DNA from: a virus
IMG/VR virus record: IMGVR_UViG_3300005915_000957
Span: 1 to 21,419 of that record
Length of the DNA: 21,419 nt
Strand: one strand, 5' to 3'
The notes beneath the pieces are model-generated. The model was not told the DNA's origin. It worked only from the letters and a program-made list of their open reading frames with translations, and ran no database searches. The position numbers were made by a program, and so were the translations under genes. Positions 3,265 to 21,359 of the stretch are shown one piece after another. Position 1 is the first letter of the stretch; each line of letters opens with the position of its first letter.

Positions 3265-3858
3265 CTACGATACGACAGAAACTTCTTCCCAAACATAATA
3301 AAACACATAACAAGCCGTTGTTGCAAGTGTAGTATATGAACACACTGCCCTGCCTGGAGGTATAACTAGACTTCCATTTAAAGGATATATATTAGGAAGA
3401 GGATTCTCGCCTGCTGCCGCAGCATCATCATACGAACTAAATACTCTCTTTAGCACAGGACTTACAAGAGTATCAGCATTAACAGCCATACAAACTGAAG
3501 CTGTGCTTGAACCATCAAGACAGTTGTAAATTGTCAAGTCGGCAGTAGGAGCAGCTATCGAAGCTGTCTGTAGCCCGATTGCACCGATAGTGTCAGCAGC
3601 TAACATCTGACCAAAACCGAATTCATGGAGTATGACATTTTTCCCACTTGTAGATGGGTTATTAATTCCAAGTCCTGTCCATGTGGCTGTTACACCAGCA
3701 GTTGTGGCAACCTTTGTGCCACTTGATGCTGAGAATAATCTACCCGCAACGGCAGCAGTTTGGAGTGGGCCACCTTGTGATAATGCGATTACTTGTTTAT
3801 ACTGGTCGGCTTCCATTGGAACTTGTGAGCCTGTTTTAACATTACGTGCTGTAAACAT
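3265..3858 (-). CDS. Cassette family protein C: core domain plus C-terminal module
   Basis: A 197-residue paralogue of proteins A and B: YKQVIALSQGGPLQTAAVAG, VATTAGVTATWTGLGINNP, NVILHEFGFGQ. The middle diverges (LTIYNCLDGSSTASVCMAVN). The C-terminal module (NGSLVIPPGRAVCSYTTL, then ACYVFYYVWEEV) is recognisable but the most diverged of the three, so this copy is the oldest or most rapidly changing. Strong GGGAGG ribosome site. It closes the cassette and is followed by a strand-specific hairpin. Function unknown; a repeated decoration or fibre-associated protein is the likeliest reading. Confidence 0.7.
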   Translation of the reverse strand: MFTARNVKTGSQVPMEADQYKQVIALSQGGPLQTAAVAGRLFSASSGTKVATTAGVTATWTGLGINNPSTSGKNVILHEFGFGQMLAADTIGAIGLQTASIAAPTADLTIYNCLDGSSTASVCMAVNADTLVSPVLKRVFSSYDDAAAAGENPLPNIYPLNGSLVIPPGRAVCSYTTLATTACYVFYYVWEEVSVVS

Positions 3859-5312: not shown

Positions 5313-5744
5313 TTATGTTATATCTGTTGTACCGTATACACCGAACACGTCATACAGTACGGGTGTATCTATAGTCTGACCTGCGGTGGTTACTGCGATA
5401 GATGGTTTGCCACTTGCCAATCGCTTATTTGGTGTCAACGATTCTGTTAATGATGTTTCGCCCACCATAAGCCCTACTGCACCCGCCTTACTTCCTGTTG
5501 TTGCTAGTGCGTATCCAAACTTATGTATAACAATGTTCTTACCGCTACCAGCAGGATTGCCAATAGCTAACCCAGTGAATGTAGTCGCTAGACCTGCGGT
5601 GGTTGCTACAGCCGATTGGTTAGCGATACTGAAGAGTCGTCCTTCTTCACTTGCTTGTTGTAGATTCCCGCCTTGTGAAAGGGTTATTGTTTTTTGATAA
5701 CCATCAGATTCAGGCCGCCCTATGGGTTTTGCTTTAGCTGTCAT
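5313..5744 (-). CDS. Cassette family protein B: core domain only, C-terminal module missing
   Basis: A 143-residue paralogue of its upstream neighbour: KTITLSQGGNLQQASEEGR, TTFTGLAIGNP, IVIHKFGYALATTGSKAGAV, then DTPVLYDVFGVYGTTDIT and stop. It matches the core of protein A closely, but ends just where the shared C-terminal module would begin. The end looks clean rather than frameshifted. The missing module is found instead at the end of the beta-helix gene downstream, so a recombination event probably separated them. Start overlaps the preceding stop; ribosome site GAGG. Probably a virion protein like its relatives. Confidence 0.7.
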   Translation of the reverse strand: MTAKAKPIGRPESDGYQKTITLSQGGNLQQASEEGRLFSIANQSAVATTAGLATTFTGLAIGNPAGSGKNIVIHKFGYALATTGSKAGAVGLMVGETSLTESLTPNKRLASGKPSIAVTTAGQTIDTPVLYDVFGVYGTTDIT

Positions 5745-6328
5745 CTATCAACCTCTTCAAAAAGAAACGAGAACACAAATGCTGCCGTAGTAGCAAGTGT
5801 CGTATACGTTGCCACAAACCTACCGGGCTCAAGTATAAGACTACCGTCCAAATCGTACATGAAATTACCTTGTAGACTTAACCCTGTGTCGGTGCCCTCT
5901 GTGCCATAGGATGCAAAAGTATCATATAATACTGGTGTTCCTATAGTCTGTCCAGCTGTTGCTATAGCTACTGATGGGTTACTGCTTGCTAACCGCTTTG
6001 CAGGTATTAGCGAAGCTGTCAATGATGTTGCCCCAACCATAATACCTACTGCACCCGCTGCTGAACCTGCAAGCGACAAAGCATATCCAAACTTATGGAT
6101 AATTAGATTTTGCTTGCTATCGTCAGGATTACCCACTGCTAAACCTGTCCAAGTTGTAGCAAGAGCAGATGTAGTCGCCACTGCTGCTTGATTCGCTATA
6201 CTATATAATCTTCCTTCTTCCGCAGCCCGTTGCAACTTACCACCTTGCGACAGCGTAATCAGTTTACTATACTGGTCAGCTTCGGGAGAAACAAACGAGC
6301 CAGTAAAGATATTTCTTAATAGCCTCAT
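5741..6328 (-). CDS. Cassette family protein A: core domain plus C-terminal module
   Basis: A 195-residue protein and one of three paralogues in this window. The core (about residues 1-145) has the signature SKLITLSQGGKLQRAAEEGR, then VATT...TWTGLAVGNP and LIIHKFGYAL, and ends in GTPVLYDTFASYG. It is followed by a module of about 45 residues (FMYDLDGSLILEPGRFVATY, then TTAAFVFSFLFEEV). Beta strands dominate. No known family is recognised. Similar small beta-rich proteins near the end of structural operons often decorate head or tail. The gene starts with AAGGGGAAA, and its stop overlaps the ATG of the next paralogue (ATGA). Confidence 0.7.
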   Translation of the reverse strand: MRLLRNIFTGSFVSPEADQYSKLITLSQGGKLQRAAEEGRLYSIANQAAVATTSALATTWTGLAVGNPDDSKQNLIIHKFGYALSLAGSAAGAVGIMVGATSLTASLIPAKRLASSNPSVAIATAGQTIGTPVLYDTFASYGTEGTDTGLSLQGNFMYDLDGSLILEPGRFVATYTTLATTAAFVFSFLFEEVDR

Positions 6329-6541: not shown

Positions 6542-6591
6542 GTTACCTCCTGCTGTTGTGTGTTAGTTTGTTCATTATGCTTTCAATATCT

Positions 6592-6672
6592 TTATTGTAG
6601 TACGAGTGATTTCCATTCTGTTGCAACATATACGTATAATGTGGTTAATATTGTAATTACTAATTTCTGCAT
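6592..6672 (-). CDS. 26-residue membrane peptide
   Basis: A 27-codon frame in an otherwise empty 155-base gap. It starts at an ATG with an extended AGGAGGAG ribosome site (6685-6678) five bases upstream. The peptide begins MQKLVITILTTLYVYVA, a hydrophobic helix, and ends with a mixed polar and hydrophobic tail (TEWKSLVLQ). A single short membrane segment of this size could belong to a small holin-like, antiholin or toxin-like peptide, but nothing identifies it. The ribosome site is among the strongest in the window, which argues that it is translated. Confidence 0.5.
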   Translation of the reverse strand: MQKLVITILTTLYVYVATEWKSLVLQ

Positions 6673-6677
6673 GTAAT

Positions 6678-6685
6678 CTCCTCCT
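6678..6685 (-). promoter_or_regulatory. Strong ribosome site supporting the 26-codon gene
   Basis: AGGAGGAG on the minus strand lies five bases before the ATG at 6672. It is stronger than the sites of several certain genes here and is the main reason to accept the very short frame. Confidence 0.6.
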
Positions 6686-6696
6686 GTTAAATTACT

Positions 6697-11222: not shown

Positions 11223-11758
11223 TATGGTTTTCCTTCACCATGTCCTGCAAATAAGAATTTACTTTTGCCGTGTGAACTATTTTTAGCATCACCAAGACTT
11301 ACTACTAATGGTGAAAGCTCCTTTGCTATATCTGTGTTGCGTTCTCTGTCTGCAATTTCTTGCCGTGCTTTTGCGTAACCTTCTTCATTTGCCATCATTC
11401 GTGCTTGACGTGCAATCCCTACTGAACTCCACCAAATACTCCGTCTAACCTGTTCTAACTCACGAGCATCAACGGTGCGATACGAACCATCGTCATTCTT
11501 TATAGGAGTAACAACATACGGAAGTTCGCCAATACGCTTGTGTACAACATTCCAACATAAATGTAGTCTGTCCCATTTAAACGATAGCGTTGATTCAATC
11601 TGTTTTAATTTAAACTGTAGGTGTTTCGGAATAGTCATGTGTTCACGAACCCCTATAATGTTTCCATTTAATTTAGTCCAGTAGCTTATCGTTCCCTTAT
11701 CGAAAGTACAGCGATGATACAGTACCTCTTTAAGTTTGTCAGACGCTTCTTTCTTCAT
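11222..11758 (-). CDS. Unknown phage protein between capsid and connector genes
   Basis: A 178-residue soluble protein. The first 90 residues are mixed alpha/beta (YWTKLNGNIIGVREHMTIP, LKQIESTLSFKWDRLHLCWN), and a central stretch ends in DDGSYRTVDARELEQVR. The rest is a charged helix (RRSIWWSSVGIARQARMM, ARQEIADRERN) and a Gly/Lys-rich tail. I recognise no family. It follows the structured non-coding gap, with AAGGAAA before its ATG. Its stop overlaps the next start as TAATG, so it is coupled to the probable adaptor gene. Proteins at this place in podovirus-like genomes are often minor head or assembly proteins; nothing in the sequence decides this. Confidence 0.7.
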   Translation of the reverse strand: MKKEASDKLKEVLYHRCTFDKGTISYWTKLNGNIIGVREHMTIPKHLQFKLKQIESTLSFKWDRLHLCWNVVHKRIGELPYVVTPIKNDDGSYRTVDARELEQVRRSIWWSSVGIARQARMMANEEGYAKARQEIADRERNTDIAKELSPLVVSLGDAKNSSHGKSKFLFAGHGEGKP

Positions 11759-11779
11759 TTATGTTTCCTTATTTATTAT

Positions 11780-12019
11780 GTAAGAGTTGACAGGATTCGA
11801 TACCTGCACGGTTATCATTTGTGGCTTTCCTCAGCGGTCAGTTCGCATCCATAAATACCGCTATCAGTTAAGTCGTCATTCCTACTTGACTTTACTACCA
11901 CCGTGTGTCAATGCGTTGATAATCTAGGAGTTAATAAGCGTCTCAGCTTGGCCTTGATACCCCGTAGTCAGGGCTAATAACCTCAACACGTTAGCGTCTA
12001 TCTTTCGCCACAACCTCAC
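11780..12019 (-). ncRNA. Candidate structured RNA of unknown class in the only large gap, with tRNA T-arm-like 3' end
   Basis: The 271 bases between 12029 and 11759 hold no convincing gene. On the minus strand the ends pair: GTGAGGTTG (12019-12011) with CAACTCTTAC (11789-11780), nine pairs with one bulge and two G-U pairs. Next to it TTGTGGC (12013-12007) matches GCCACAA (11825-11819) exactly. Just before the 3' strand is a hairpin CAGG-8 nt-CCTG (11806-11791) whose core GGTATCGAATCC is one base longer than the tRNA T-arm consensus GGTTCGAATCC. Inside are GTGTTGA/TCAACGC (11989-11983 with 11919-11913), AGCGGT/ACCGCT and AAGTC/GACTT hairpins. A possible pseudoknot is CACGGT with ACCGTG (11905-11900 and 11812-11807). 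Closing helix plus T-arm recalls a tmRNA, but no D-loop GG-TTCGAC, CCA end or tag frame is seen. A 5' leader controlling the next gene is an alternative. Confidence 0.4.
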
Positions 12020-12029
12020 ATTATTTAAG

Positions 12030-13495: not shown

Positions 13496-14788
13496 TTATA
13501 ACTTCGTATCAGATACAACCGTAATGTCAGTAAGTTTACCATTCTTTGCACGGTTAGTAATACCGAGCGTCAGATAATGCATATACGTGGCAAACATCTG
13601 GTCTTTGTCTAACGTCTGATTACGTGAACCGCCACCGAAATCAATCCAGCCAGGCGAACCAGGTTGGTAGAAAGCGAGTGTTGACGGGTCAATGAAATAA
13701 ATCTCGTCCGCCAAATACGGGTCACGGAATACATTAATACCATTGAAGTTCAAGGTAGGCCATGCAGCATCAAGCGTAGGAGCATTCATAATTGTGTTAT
13801 TCTGGTCTTCCAGATTAGCATAAGTATTCCATACGCCAGGTGATGTTGCCATGAAGCCAGTCTGACCCTGAGCAACGATTTCAATCTGTGTAGCCATTTC
13901 ATTCATACGGAGAGATGTGAGAGCTTCCGCAGTTCCAGGAGTTGCGCCATAACCTACCTGTGAACGCCACTCTGGATATGTGTCAGCATTGATACCCTGT
14001 AGCGTTGTAGCTATTGTGGCATCATCAATGAGTGATTTAACACCCTGCATCTCATGTCCGTAGTTATCATTTGAAGCTGTGGAACTTGCAGCATTATAGA
14101 GATAAGAACCATCATCTATAGATGTCGAAGTACCACTTACCGTTAAGATTGCTGATGTTGATGGGAAAGCACCAGGAGTAACAGCAGTCACAAGTACACC
14201 AGCATTTTCTACAGTTCCGCCAGAATCACGGGATTGCAGATACATGCCTTTTGTAATATGACGTGCACCATTAACGTCAGAGTTATTATAGCCACTCCAA
14301 CCAGATGCGTTATCAACTGTTAAAGCTCCTGTGCCACTATCGTCACCGTCCATCTGACAGAGAATAGCAAGACCGTCACCACAAGACTGACGATTTAAAC
14401 TCTGTGCAAATGCTTGAGCTTTTGTGTCAATTTCTTCTGATAGAGCTTCGACAACGGCAAATTTACTTCCGCCCATTGTGGTAGCCATTGACTGACCACT
14501 GAGAGAAATCTTGAAATAATGCCAGTTGAATCCTACTTGCGAAAGGTCAATATTGGTTGCGGTTGCCTGTGGCAAGCTATCGCCTTCAGCAAGAGTACCA
14601 GTACCGCCATTATAATTATATCTTACATGAATATTAAATTGCTTTCCGCCATGTGCCATAGTCGGAATAGTTGTTTCTAATTGTTTCATAAACAAGTTCC
14701 GAGTCGGAATCTGTTTGTAAACTTGGTCACTATAGTACTCGTGAAGTAAATCAGTCAGAGTAGTTCTAGTCCCTGGGGTATCAGCCAT
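13496..14788 (-). CDS. Major capsid protein
   Basis: A 430-residue protein forming the capsid shell. It lies directly after the scaffold. The N-terminal part (TLTDLLHEYYSDQVYKQIP, ATTIPTMAHGG-like segment, then FNIHVRYNYNGGTGTLAEGD) resembles the N-arm and E-loop of HK97-fold coat proteins. A helix EALSEEIDTKAQAFAQSLNR resembles the spine helix. Residues about 150-235 are Ser/Thr/Gly-rich and beta-like (GVLVTAVTPGAFPSTSAILT) and may be an inserted surface domain. The C-terminus (DQMFATYMHYLTLGITN) is typical of the A-domain end. There is no cleavage-site or protease gene nearby, consistent with scaffold-driven assembly. AAAGG precedes the ATG by 9 bases. Which coat family it belongs to cannot be fixed by eye. 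Confidence 0.85.
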   Translation of the reverse strand: MADTPGTRTTLTDLLHEYYSDQVYKQIPTRNLFMKQLETTIPTMAHGGKQFNIHVRYNYNGGTGTLAEGDSLPQATATNIDLSQVGFNWHYFKISLSGQSMATTMGGSKFAVVEALSEEIDTKAQAFAQSLNRQSCGDGLAILCQMDGDDSGTGALTVDNASGWSGYNNSDVNGARHITKGMYLQSRDSGGTVENAGVLVTAVTPGAFPSTSAILTVSGTSTSIDDGSYLYNAASSTASNDNYGHEMQGVKSLIDDATIATTLQGINADTYPEWRSQVGYGATPGTAEALTSLRMNEMATQIEIVAQGQTGFMATSPGVWNTYANLEDQNNTIMNAPTLDAAWPTLNFNGINVFRDPYLADEIYFIDPSTLAFYQPGSPGWIDFGGGSRNQTLDKDQMFATYMHYLTLGITNRAKNGKLTDITVVSDTKL

Positions 14789-17940: not shown

Positions 17941-18231
17941 TTAGTCAGCACCTAATTGTATACCGAACTCAGCTATCTCTGCTTCGGTAGCTTCTCCCCG
18001 TGCTACCATATGCTTATATCTCTCGTGCTTCTTTGCTTCGTCACTTGCTTTCTTTTTCTCAGCCTTGTCATATCGCTTCTCATGAACGCTTTTCATAATT
18101 TCTACCGCAGCATGAGGACTCGTTGACATCATAATAAATGCCTGTGCTCTCATTAACATATAGACAAGACAACCTATAGTTGCTATGAGTCCGACTACTG
18201 ATACGATTGCGATAACGTCACCAATTCCCAT
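17941..18231 (-). CDS. Small membrane-anchored protein of unknown function
   Basis: A 96-residue protein. Residues about 4-28 form one strong membrane helix (VIAIVSVVGLIATIGCLVYML). The rest is a highly charged, probably helical or coiled tail (EKRYDKAEKKKASDEAKKHE). The start lies inside terL with a strong GGAGG ribosome site. A single-pass protein with a cytoplasmic coiled tail could be a lysis accessory, a membrane anchor or an assembly factor; I recognise no family. The position between terminase and portal is notable because packaging genes are usually adjacent there. Confidence 0.75.
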   Translation of the reverse strand: MGIGDVIAIVSVVGLIATIGCLVYMLMRAQAFIMMSTSPHAAVEIMKSVHEKRYDKAEKKKASDEAKKHERYKHMVARGEATEAEIAEFGIQLGAD

Positions 18232-20779
18232 AACGACCTCCAGCTACTCGTTTCTTAGTATCCGCCATTCTTGCTAACTGCATATCAACTAGACTCACTG
18301 GCTTTGTAAGTTTCATATTCGTGCTGAAATCTCTAGGGAATGCTGAGTCTATATATTTGAGTGCTGTACAATTATGTACAATCACACCGTTAGCAGCAAA
18401 ATTATGCGTATCTTCAACAAACATATTGTATACATCTGAATATCCGTATGGTTCAACCGAAACAACTTTGTGATTTAAGACGCCTTGATTTTTGAGCTTA
18501 TAATATTGACGTACGGACATGCCGTATTTCTCTCTAATATTTGTATGTACAGAACTCTGTCTACACTTATCATTACAATATTTAACCCTATTGACAAGGT
18601 GTTTATACGTCATAAATGCACTTCCACACTCGTGACACATAACTTCTGCATCCTTAGTCTCATCATCCCAAAACTTCTTAATACTGACATTCCTTAATTC
18701 ATCCAACTTCTCTGGATTTTCCTCTCGATATTTCTTGAAGTATTTAACCTGACCCTTACCACGGATACTCCGCAATCTTCTTGTTTCATCAGTAATACCA
18801 TTTGCCATATTTTCACGTTGTTTCTTACCGTGTACTTTGCCCTTACTGTGCATACTTGCGTGTTTTGCACGTGTTACTAATTCCAAATTGTCAGGAGAGT
18901 TGTTTAATTTATTACTATCCTTATGATGAACATTCCATGTCCACCCATCTTTTGGTAATTTTTCTACACAGTCGTTGTACACAACCCTATGTGCTGATGC
19001 CTGTACACCATTGTTCAATGTAAGAGTAAGGTGTCCGTGATGATTAATATACTTATACAATGGCATAACACTATCGCCAGTTTCCAACTCGCAGGCCTGT
19101 ACCCACTCTCCATTTCTAAGCATAATAGGGTGGCTAGGAGTACACACGATATAATTACCTTCACTAAACATAACCCTGATTACTTCTGCACCTTCTTGTG
19201 TTTTGCGCACATCGCTGAACTTGCTTGCTGTTATTCTTCCTTCTTGTTCATTATAGCAGTATACATGCCCTTCTTTCCCCACCAAATCTTCTATCTTTTT
19301 ATCGCCTAATGTTGTGTTTATAATGGTATTACCGTGCAAACAGATGTGGTCTCGTTGGAGCGCTTTTATTTTCTCATTATCGCCATATTCTAAACTTGCG
19401 TGCTCGCTGTAGGTATGTGTACATTTAGGACAAATCCTATACGTGCCATCTCGGAATCCAGAATCTACTGATTCAATCCCCTTAACCCAATCGTTATCGC
19501 CAGGTAGCAGTGGCATCTTCATTCCGATTAGTTTCGCTTCATACATGTATTTTTCTATTATAGTGTATTTAGTACCTTCCATTTTCCTACTCATTGACGG
19601 GTCACATCTCCACCACCGAACTCTCGCTCTCGTATCATCTGTGTATTGCGCCTCGGTCGGGTAGAACTCCATCTGTGCTATCTGAATACGTTTCAGCTTA
19701 TCGCTAATTGCTTTTACGGATTCCTTGATAGTAGATGAACTGAGATAAAGCTCATCGAAAATATACTTCATTGCTTTTTTACCAGCACGTTTATGATACG
19801 ATACGAAAGTGACTGCTGTGACACCAGTGCGAAAAGTTTTGTCTTCACCTGTGCCTCCATGATCCACCCCGATTCCTATGTCATCACTTGGGTGAGGAAT
19901 TAAATTCCTGTCTAATATAGTTTGTCTTGAACACCCTAAATAAACTTTACCTTCCCAAGCATCCCAAGAGCCTTCCACGTCACGAGCATATTCCCTAGCT
20001 GACTTGTTTCTTTTCTGTCTGCTAATATACTTGTCAGGAAGCCAATGTTTGTTTTCCATTACAGGAATGTGTATATACTTAAACTCAGGATTATATTTCT
20101 CGAATATATTCGGGTCTGTAGAATACTGATAGTCCTCATTCTCAAAGAACAACTCGTGAAGAAATGAGCCGTGTCTTGGATTACATACTCCAAATGCCGT
20201 ATGATATTTAACAACAGCATCTAATTTTTCTGGCTCAGTCGAAACACACTCACCAGTATTTTTGTCAAATTCTGGCACTATCATTGTCCCGTCACTATAA
20301 TATCTTCTAAATGATTTCCGTCTAATTCTTTCGAGAGCAAGTGCGTCCCATACTTCTCTTTGACATTGCTCCATTTGGTCAAATGCAGCGAAAGCAAGGT
20401 TGAAAGATTGCAGATGGTCAACCCCATCTAAGTGAGTAAAGTGTATTTCACTCCCATTAATTAATTCAACTTTCGAATCTTTATCCCAGTATTGCTTAAT
20501 CCAACTCCTTGGGAGCCAACGAAACAGTTCCGGTAGTGTTGTCTTCTTGAAGTCTAAGTGTTTATTTCTTCCGAGCACCCCGCAACTTCCTGCACAGTTT
20601 CCGAAAATTTCTGAGTCTACGCAAAGCAAAATTGTCCTACAAACAAGAGCAGTCGTTTTACCGCTGCCATACCCCCCACTCCCGAGCAAATACGGTTTTT
20701 TACTATATACGAATTTAGCTTGTGCCGGGTTTAGAGTAGGAAAAATTAACTGGTTACTATCAACTTCTATTTTAGGCAA
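18218..20779 (-). CDS. terL: Terminase large subunit, interrupted by an HNH intein
   Basis: The 853-residue precursor would give a mature terminase of 529 residues, normal for the family, after intein removal. It is the DNA-packaging motor: an ATPase that pumps DNA through the portal and a nuclease that cuts concatemers. The ATPase domain has a Walker A motif GSGGYGSGKT at residues 33-42, a Walker B-type segment LAFAAFDQME with D134 and E137, and a coupling motif FGVCNP at 196-201. The RNase H-like nuclease domain has GIGVDHGG with D306, CDPS with D393, and a third motif split by the intein (RDHI before it, CTALKY after it). A CPKC pair at 450-453 may bind a metal. The usual Asp of D-A-L-R-Y is Thr here, so the catalytic set should be checked by alignment. 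Translation starts at TTG. The 3' end overlaps the next gene by 14 bases. No small terminase subunit is visible in the window. Confidence 0.95.
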   Translation of the reverse strand: MPKIEVDSNQLIFPTLNPAQAKFVYSKKPYLLGSGGYGSGKTTALVCRTILLCVDSEIFGNCAGSCGVLGRNKHLDFKKTTLPELFRWLPRSWIKQYWDKDSKVELINGSEIHFTHLDGVDHLQSFNLAFAAFDQMEQCQREVWDALALERIRRKSFRRYYSDGTMIVPEFDKNTGECVSTEPEKLDAVVKYHTAFGVCNPRHGSFLHELFFENEDYQYSTDPNIFEKYNPEFKYIHIPVMENKHWLPDKYISRQKRNKSAREYARDVEGSWDAWEGKVYLGCSRQTILDRNLIPHPSDDIGIGVDHGGTGEDKTFRTGVTAVTFVSYHKRAGKKAMKYIFDELYLSSSTIKESVKAISDKLKRIQIAQMEFYPTEAQYTDDTRARVRWWRCDPSMSRKMEGTKYTIIEKYMYEAKLIGMKMPLLPGDNDWVKGIESVDSGFRDGTYRICPKCTHTYSEHASLEYGDNEKIKALQRDHICLHGNTIINTTLGDKKIEDLVGKEGHVYCYNEQEGRITASKFSDVRKTQEGAEVIRVMFSEGNYIVCTPSHPIMLRNGEWVQACELETGDSVMPLYKYINHHGHLTLTLNNGVQASAHRVVYNDCVEKLPKDGWTWNVHHKDSNKLNNSPDNLELVTRAKHASMHSKGKVHGKKQRENMANGITDETRRLRSIRGKGQVKYFKKYREENPEKLDELRNVSIKKFWDDETKDAEVMCHECGSAFMTYKHLVNRVKYCNDKCRQSSVHTNIREKYGMSVRQYYKLKNQGVLNHKVVSVEPYGYSDVYNMFVEDTHNFAANGVIVHNCTALKYIDSAFPRDFSTNMKLTKPVSLVDMQLARMADTKKRVAGGRYGNW
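18371..19342 (-). mobile_element. Intein with internal HNH homing endonuclease inside terL
   Basis: In-frame protein splicing element, residues 480-803 of the precursor (324 residues). It begins with Cys (CLHGNTIINT, block A). Block B is CTPSHPI with the T547-x-x-H550 pair. Block F is VYNMFVEDTHNFAANG with H792, and it ends in VIVHN with His-Asn at 802-803. The next extein residue is Cys804, so all class 1 splicing residues are present. Between the splicing halves lies an HNH domain (NVHHKDSNKLNNSPDNLELV, then H640 and H644) and a CxxC...CxxxC zinc knuckle at C715, C718, C735 and C739, a plausible DNA-binding element. The junction I479/C804 falls inside the third nuclease motif of the terminase, a conserved site where imprecise loss would kill the enzyme. 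Splicing should be autocatalytic and is expected to be active. Confidence 0.93.
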
Positions 20780-21359
20780 ATATCGCTCCTATATATTCTT
20801 CATACTGACTTGCGTTATTGTTCCTATACCCATACTGCTTATGGAAAGATATGTGACATTTCTCACAAAGAGTAATTCCGTTATTTTCATCAAACCGCAT
20901 TTCTTTATATCCAGTATAGCTATGTAAGTGATGTCCTATTAATTTACCACCAACCTTACCACATACTTGACAGGTATATTTGTCACGACCCAATACACTG
21001 TCGCGCCAATCTCTATAGTCGTCATTTTTTCTTCTGTCTGAGCGTTCTTCTTCTGTGAGTGATGGATTCCATTTCCAATGTTCCTCACCACAAAACATAC
21101 CCTTTCTCGCTCTACTCATACTGGCACAATGTTCCTTGGATAGTTTTATGCCAGTTTTAGCCCTTCTTATTCTTTCCCCGTGTATTGGTGATAATTTGAT
21201 TCCTTTGCTGATAGTCCTTATTTTTACGCCATTTCTACGTAGAGCACTAATAATTGCACCAACAGAGCAATTGAACTCTTTAGCAAGCATAGGGGAAGAA
21301 AATTCCTCACTATATAATTTGACAAGTTTTACGTTATCTAATATCAATCTTTTCGGCAT
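20772..21359 (-). CDS. Free-standing HNH homing-type endonuclease with NUMOD-like repeats
   Basis: A 195-residue protein. Residues about 20-45 resemble a helix-turn-helix (LAKEFNCSVGAIISALRRNG). Residues about 56-90 contain two copies of a NUMOD3-like motif (IKLSPIHGERIRRAKTG and IKLSKEHCASMSRARKG), which in homing endonucleases contacts DNA. Residues 130-173 form an HNH nuclease with two zinc-binding pairs (C130/C133 and C165/C168), the His pair H143-H144, N160, and H169/H173. Such genes cut a cognate allele so that their own DNA is copied in during repair. The gene abuts the preceding stop, and its last 8 bases overlap the terminase start, whose ribosome site lies inside it. HNH proteins that assist packaging also sit beside terminases in some phages, but the NUMOD-like repeats favour the homing class. 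Only a weak AGAAAG-like ribosome site precedes the ATG. Confidence 0.85.
   Translation of the reverse strand: MPKRLILDNVKLVKLYSEEFSSPMLAKEFNCSVGAIISALRRNGVKIRTISKGIKLSPIHGERIRRAKTGIKLSKEHCASMSRARKGMFCGEEHWKWNPSLTEEERSDRRKNDDYRDWRDSVLGRDKYTCQVCGKVGGKLIGHHLHSYTGYKEMRFDENNGITLCEKCHISFHKQYGYRNNNASQYEEYIGAIFA
20786..20790 (-). promoter_or_regulatory. Ribosome binding site that fixes the TTG start of the terminase
   Basis: AGGAG on the minus strand lies 6 nucleotides before a TTG codon at 20779-20777. There is no in-frame ATG until about residue 136, past the Walker A motif, so TTG must be the start. The site lies inside the 3' end of the upstream HNH gene. Confidence 0.8.

Follow-up and report, generated by a model that had tools for sequence, protein, structure and literature searches.

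A tRNA-like RNA element in a phage late operon and its relatives in unrelated bacterial viruses

Introduction

What occupies the one large non-coding gap in a phage structural-gene operon whose genes are otherwise closely spaced? The window analyzed here is the whole 21,419-nt stretch of IMG/VR virus record IMGVR_UViG_3300005915_000957, and the 271-nt gap at 12029-11759 on its minus strand is by far the largest non-coding gap of the operon, the remaining spacers being 0-87 nt long. No open reading frame of at least 50 aa lies within 11759-12029 on either strand, which bears out the original prediction, made from the sequence alone, that this is the only large non-coding gap of the operon. The gap is bordered on its 5' side by a 475-codon gene situated 3' of the major capsid gene, with a stop codon at 12032-12030 (minus strand), and on its 3' side by a 178-codon gene with its ATG at 11758 (minus strand). 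The second-largest spacer (6542-6696, minus strand) is apparently occupied by a small membrane-type open reading frame (MQKLVITILTTLYVYV...) with a good ribosome-binding site.

Elsewhere on the minus strand, the terminase large subunit gene (18218-20779) is interrupted in frame by an intein that carries an HNH endonuclease, at residues ~494-803 (Pfam Intein_splicing, 2.1e-21), and a free-standing HNH endonuclease gene (20772-21359) lies directly upstream of it. Three structural-type proteins encoded at 3265-3858, 5313-5744 and 5741-6328 are paralogous, with the common start 'LSQGG.LQ.A...GRLFS', apparently by local gene duplication. The major capsid protein (MCP; 13496-14788) shares only ~25% identity with its counterparts in Microbacterium, Arthrobacter and Cellulosimicrobium phages and in IMG/VR contigs. 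The window has no close relative in the databases searched, and as judged by sequence comparison the phage is an isolated lineage.

Results

Read alone, the window sequence does not prove a structured RNA. The folding stability of the gap is ordinary (z = -0.94 for the minus strand and -1.71 for the plus strand), and the Rfam scan that accompanied the original prediction as a proposed check gave no match in the window, either at the gathering threshold or at E<10. The tRNA covariance model (RF00005) has no window match at E up to 10, the group I intron model (RF00028) is unmatched, no tmRNA is found in the window by either the tmRNA model (RF00023) or ARAGORN, and at its default threshold ARAGORN calls nothing in the gap. 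Of the features of a tRNA, the gap has a 7-bp acceptor (6/7 pairs) abutting a 5-bp T-arm (5/5 pairs), and is without a 7-nt T-loop with TTCRA, a D-loop GG or an anticodon arm with a 7-nt loop. The best blastn matches of the 3' 53 nt among 50,697 phage genomes are mainly tRNA genes, and the 3' end agrees with T5 tRNA-Arg at 23 of 25 aligned positions, a similarity above that of 1000 shuffles; an exact 27-mer of this end has no match. Because neither of the proteins flanking the gap has a close relative in IMG/VR or INPHARED, the RNA itself was used as the search bait.

The element defined in this way has, in RNA order from position 12017, the organization GAGGTTG / TGGCGAAAGATAGACGC / 186 nt / GCAGG-TATCGAAT-CCTGT / CAACTCT, with the following parts.

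11783..12017, minus strand: whole tRNA-like RNA element, 235 nt, beginning 12 nt past the stop of the upstream gene; the sole window match of covariance model R1
12011..12017, minus strand: 5' strand of the acceptor-like stem, GAGGTTG; 6/7 pairs with CAACTCT
11994..12010, minus strand: spacer TG and D-arm-like hairpin TGGCGAAAGATAGACGC, with a GCG/CGC stem and a 9-nt loop without the tRNA GG; exact 16-mer shared with unrelated phage contigs
11808..11993, minus strand: variable middle, 186 nt, in place of an anticodon domain; no similarity to the middles of other members
11790..11807, minus strand: T-arm-like hairpin GCAGG-TATCGAAT-CCTGT, with a 5-bp stem and an 8-nt loop (7 in tRNA); pattern GCAGGTATCRAATCCTGY in at least 119 IMG/VR stretches
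11783..11789, minus strand: 3' strand of the acceptor-like stem, CAACTCT, abutting the T-arm; followed by T and then ACA, CCA not being encoded
11759..11782, minus strand: 24-nt leader of the 178-codon gene, with a ribosome-binding-like AAGGA ahead of the ATG; outside the RNA element, as read from the sequence

The register is that of a tRNA, with a 7-nt acceptor strand, bases 8-9, a tRNA-Leu-like D-arm, and a T-arm that runs directly into the 3' acceptor strand, and the departures from tRNA are the 8-nt T-loop TATCGAAT, the D-loop AAAGATAGA without GG, and the replaced anticodon region. In tRNA, the D-loop GG docks on the T-loop. Kissing pairs between the two loops (GATA/TATC) are complementary in the window and were rejected, since they are not maintained in members that combine this T-loop with another D-loop sequence (GTTA, GTCA or TAGA). 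The closing helix that had been proposed for the ends of the gap does exist, but its limits are redrawn to 12017-12011 with 11789-11783, with no extra bases before the T-arm; it has six of seven pairs, including two G-U pairs and interrupted by one A.C mismatch, and both G-U pairs form in the minus-strand RNA only, as predicted. The T-arm-like hairpin likewise lies where it was expected, directly before the closing 3' strand. Neither the exact 7-bp inner helix (TTGTGGC/GCCACAA) nor a pseudoknot is supported; the helix uses conserved acceptor and D-arm bases, and about two such Watson-Crick 7-mers are expected by chance in a sequence of this size (by arithmetic). The variable middle may form local hairpins such as GCCCUG-ACUA-CGGGGU.

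Relatives were recovered from both ends of the element. The D-motif 16-mer TGGCGAAAGATAGACG is present in 22 IMG/VR stretches, several of which have the same 8-nt T-loop 60-190 nt downstream and, after this loop, a sequence complementary to the 7 nt that precede the motif. Searching with TGGYGRAAGATAGACRC yielded 102 IMG/VR stretches, most with the full element, and the reverse search with the T-arm GCAGGTATCRAATCCTGY yielded at least 119. At 36 of 63 independent T-arm loci TGGYGRAA is situated within 240 nt upstream, compared with 0/63 control windows, and all seven acceptor pairs are formed at 31 of these 36. Covariance model R1, built from 16 members with the window left out, has a single match in the 21.4-kb window (11783-12017, minus strand; 48.6 bits, E = 3.5e-13), and E = 1.3e-14 with filters off and 801 nt searched; it has no match in 84 other phage loci (962 kb, fetched via MCP relatives). 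A Microvirus match (AAAGATAGACG) is without a T-arm and was judged to reflect chance.

Pairing was evaluated in 43 elements that have both the D and T motifs, chosen while ignoring the acceptor stem. The acceptor has 7/7 pairs in 33 and at least 6/7 in 41 of them, whereas swapped partners give 7/7 in 1.9% of cases and shifted registers never do. In an alignment of 29 sequences, 97.9% of cells are paired and double changes occur at 11 of the 15 pairs; the covariation is 0.695 versus 0.158 when shuffled (reached in 0/500 shuffles), with 110 versus 28 double-change cells, and sliding the stem partners abolishes it. The D-arm pairs are kept in 100% of cases, with one C-G to U-A switch, as are those of the T-arm stem, with covariation. 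In a second subtype, with a 7-bp T-stem and the loop TGNNAGT, the acceptor has 7/7 pairs in 17 of 27 (2.1% when swapped). The middles are only slightly more stable than shuffled sequences (mean z = -0.66 +/- 0.14, n=39; -0.17 for that of the window).

The match to the covariance model, the covariation, and the independent two-way recovery of the motifs together strongly support a structured tRNA-like phage RNA, and conservation in relatives makes the window element more than a chance arrangement. The original prediction, that the minus strand encodes a structured and tRNA-like phage RNA that may be undescribed, is thus correct as to the kind of RNA, though only in part as to its details, and covariation and conservation among relatives, whose absence had been named as grounds for dropping it, were both found. 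No published description of such a family was found in the literature searched, and by these searches it is an uncatalogued family present in scores of unrelated bacterial-virus contigs.

The T-arm pattern is found 35 times in 257 Gb of cellular genomes, which is about the chance level (~30 expected by arithmetic from the pattern length), a handful of these being true elements; the 18-mer D motif is absent from the same 257 Gb. Among 296 genomes from a single phylum, searched with a covariance model, seven contain the element, counting the seed genome. These copies may be prophages, and a small number of the short copies could instead be ordinary tRNA-Leu. These data bear on the idea that the element is a decaying tRNA pseudogene or an attP remnant of a host tRNA, which is in keeping with the tRNA-Leu-like D-arm and with the 23/25 alignment to T5 tRNA-Arg. 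However, unrelated phages share these departures from tRNA and show compensatory acceptor changes, and the 8-nt T-loop pattern is only at chance level in cellular genomes, so that decay is refuted at the level of the family and we give it almost no credence.

The element is 64-236 nt long across the family, with the D motif TGGYGRAA-(1-4 nt)-AGACRC and, in the main subtype, nearly always the T-loop TATCRAAT. The D-loop GG is almost always absent where the T-loop is unusual: it is found in four of six long elements whose T-loop is canonical (TTCRA), most of them array neighbors, and in 0/56 with an unusual T-loop, a comparison that the searches have partly preselected. Element L246 (acceptor 6/7 pairs) is an exception, and the overall pattern suggests that the D/T elbow may have co-evolved. 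CCA is encoded in three of 43 elements. The middles are 15-190 nt long, hypervariable and unrelated between most members, with shared middles in a few clusters (L167/L239/L246/L181; L192/L262). Those of L192 and L262 have an 80-nt internal motif in common (CTGTAAGACAAG..GGTAAATA ... GAAAATATTAA..ATATCCTC) despite their different T-arm subtypes, and certain middles may move between handles as modules.

Several stretches carry two or three elements, mostly with different middles (L198, L233, L234, L244, L258, L271, L163, L341 and L158), the two copies in L158 having an identical middle. Some array neighbors combine a canonical GG D-loop with a TTCRA T-loop, and one array member (L244:2778-3009, minus strand) has a large insertion within the D-loop. 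The flanking open reading frames are on the strand of the element in 56 of 66 cases and include portal, Erf, DNA polymerase, homing endonuclease and endolysin genes; with neighbors of so many kinds, the element has no fixed locus and is not confined to a single group of phages. In L173 it lies 3' of a portal gene, and the portal/170-aa gene pair there was considered as a counterpart of the window layout and set aside, the arrangement being similar but the proteins unrelated. An abiF RNA (Rfam RF03085; L126:3023-3059, plus strand) is situated ~107 nt upstream of a tRNA-like element, beside two tRNAs.

Members also occur in known phages. Phapecoctavirus phages of E. coli have the exact T-arm in an unannotated 76-nt element between tRNA-Asn and tRNA-Thr, within a cluster of genuine tRNAs whose transcript requires tRNA processing, and in Leptospira phage LE1 an element of 126 nt lies in the gap 3' of a tail-fiber gene in the structural region. 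The three best R1 matches in the T5 tRNA region are RNA1, RNA3 and RNA2 (16.7, 10.5 and 9.8 bits), which are weak and yet above every ordinary tRNA; these RNAs may be distant relatives of the family. These three are entered as misc_RNA in AY543070, with the descriptions 'tRNA-like stable RNA with unknown functions' and 'putative tRNA-like RNA'. Like the family, all three have a tRNA-like acceptor and T-arm around a non-decoding middle. RNA1 shares the tRNA-Leu-like D-arm and differs in its canonical T-loop and GG D-loop, RNA2 differs in its canonical T-loop, and RNA3 shares an 8-nt T-loop (CATCGAAT) and differs in its tRNA size and its D-arm TAGAGTTAAG.

An alternative is that the anticodon loop of a tRNA gene contains a self-splicing intron, which is how ARAGORN with a lowered threshold reads the gap (a 156-162-nt insert, with an equally good enclosing match in only 4/1000 shuffles). 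Group I models are unmatched, though, members of 69-76 nt could not accommodate an intron yet retain the odd T-loop, T5 RNA3 and the phAPEC8 RNA are without a 7-nt anticodon loop with U33, and the middles have no intron core in common. The intron is therefore mostly refuted, and we consider it improbable.

A tmRNA or tmRNA derivative has the same topology, in which an acceptor, a long insert, a T-arm and the acceptor follow one another, and tmRNA (RF00023) resembles the element in that tRNA-like ends enclose a long insert. This likeness, which formed part of the original prediction, does not extend further: neither the model nor ARAGORN gives a match, the D region is not of the tmRNA type, no shared tag reading frame is seen in the middles, and because the acceptor base pairs vary freely there is no conserved G3-U70 alanine identity pair. 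A tmRNA origin is accordingly very improbable.

Discussion

We have described here a recurrent tRNA-like element of bacterial viruses. Its stems covary, its D- and T-loops are conserved, it is spread over unrelated phages and present in tandem copies, and it has no consistent decoding loop. Its upper half (acceptor stem, T-arm and D-arm) is apparently derived from tRNA-Leu, a class II tRNA with which the family shares the acceptor register, the TGGCG..AGACGC D-arm and the position of the T-arm, and from which it differs in the D-loop without GG, the 8-nt T-loop, the lack of a consistent anticodon arm and of an Rfam tRNA match. T4 RNA C and RNA D (species 1 and 2) are stable phage RNAs of ~120-140 nt beside tRNA genes, and RNA C has a T-arm and acceptor-like stem at its end as the family does; unlike the family, they have no D motif, and their R1 scores are not above those of ordinary T4 tRNAs.

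We favor the interpretation that the window RNA is probably a stable, non-decoding, phage-specific tRNA-like RNA excised from the late mRNA, with a middle domain particular to the phage. Counting against this interpretation are the A.C mismatch in the window acceptor, the little excess structure in the middles, and the weak match of T5 RNA1. The main rival is pure punctuation of the operon, in which the element is a mere site at which RNase P and RNase Z cut the late polycistronic transcript, with filler as its middle. Its intergenic position on the coding strand (the two ends lie 12 nt past a stop codon and 24 nt short of a start codon), the hypervariable and barely structured middles, and the intergenic placement in the LE1 structural region and after the portal gene in L173 are all consistent with this. 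A plain processing site, however, needs neither near-invariant, non-tRNA D-loop and T-loop sequences nor tandem copies and placement within tRNA clusters, and a 186-nt filler would be expected to vanish from a compact genome; we thus regard punctuation alone as unlikely.

For an excised RNA, we propose that the element would be transcribed within the late operon mRNA, that RNase P would trim its 5' end and host tRNA 3'-end enzymes its 3' end, and that CCA would be added after trimming, as suggested by the rarity of an encoded CCA. Excision would yield a stable non-decoding RNA and separate the mRNA on both sides. The conserved top half would then be a handle for processing, stability and recognition by tRNA-binding proteins, and the middle a phage-specific payload that most likely binds or decoys a host factor, such as a tRNA-directed defense nuclease or a regulator. 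We suggest a binder or decoy on the grounds of a constant handle combined with a middle that evolves quickly and can occur in several copies, and a payload aimed at a host factor would account for this rapid change. In murine gammaherpesvirus 68, a viral tRNA-like handle serves the expression and processing of another RNA. The likeness to the phage element lies in the way of working, and the differences are that this is a eukaryotic virus and that a Pol III promoter and a microRNA payload are involved. For the tRNA-like RNAs of this virus we refer to Bowden et al. 1997, as cited in PMC6409571.

More tentatively, there could be a large unnamed class of phage RNAs built on the top half of a tRNA whose elbow has been rewired (T-loop TATCRAAT or TGNNAGT, and a D-loop without GG). 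This half would serve all of them as a handle for processing and stability, and the fast-evolving payloads attached to it, some in tandem arrays, would be directed against host defense or against tRNA-binding proteins of the host. The tRNA-like stable RNAs of T5 and T4 are annotated without a function and have looked like isolated oddities, and those resembling the T5 RNAs now stand beside a recurrent family for which there is a consensus that can be tested, together with a covariance model and with members in phages of laboratory E. coli. Processed RNAs overlooked by both gene finders and Rfam may accordingly be concealed in many of the large non-coding gaps of phage operons and tRNA clusters, and the long-standing question of the role of tRNA-like RNAs becomes directly testable.
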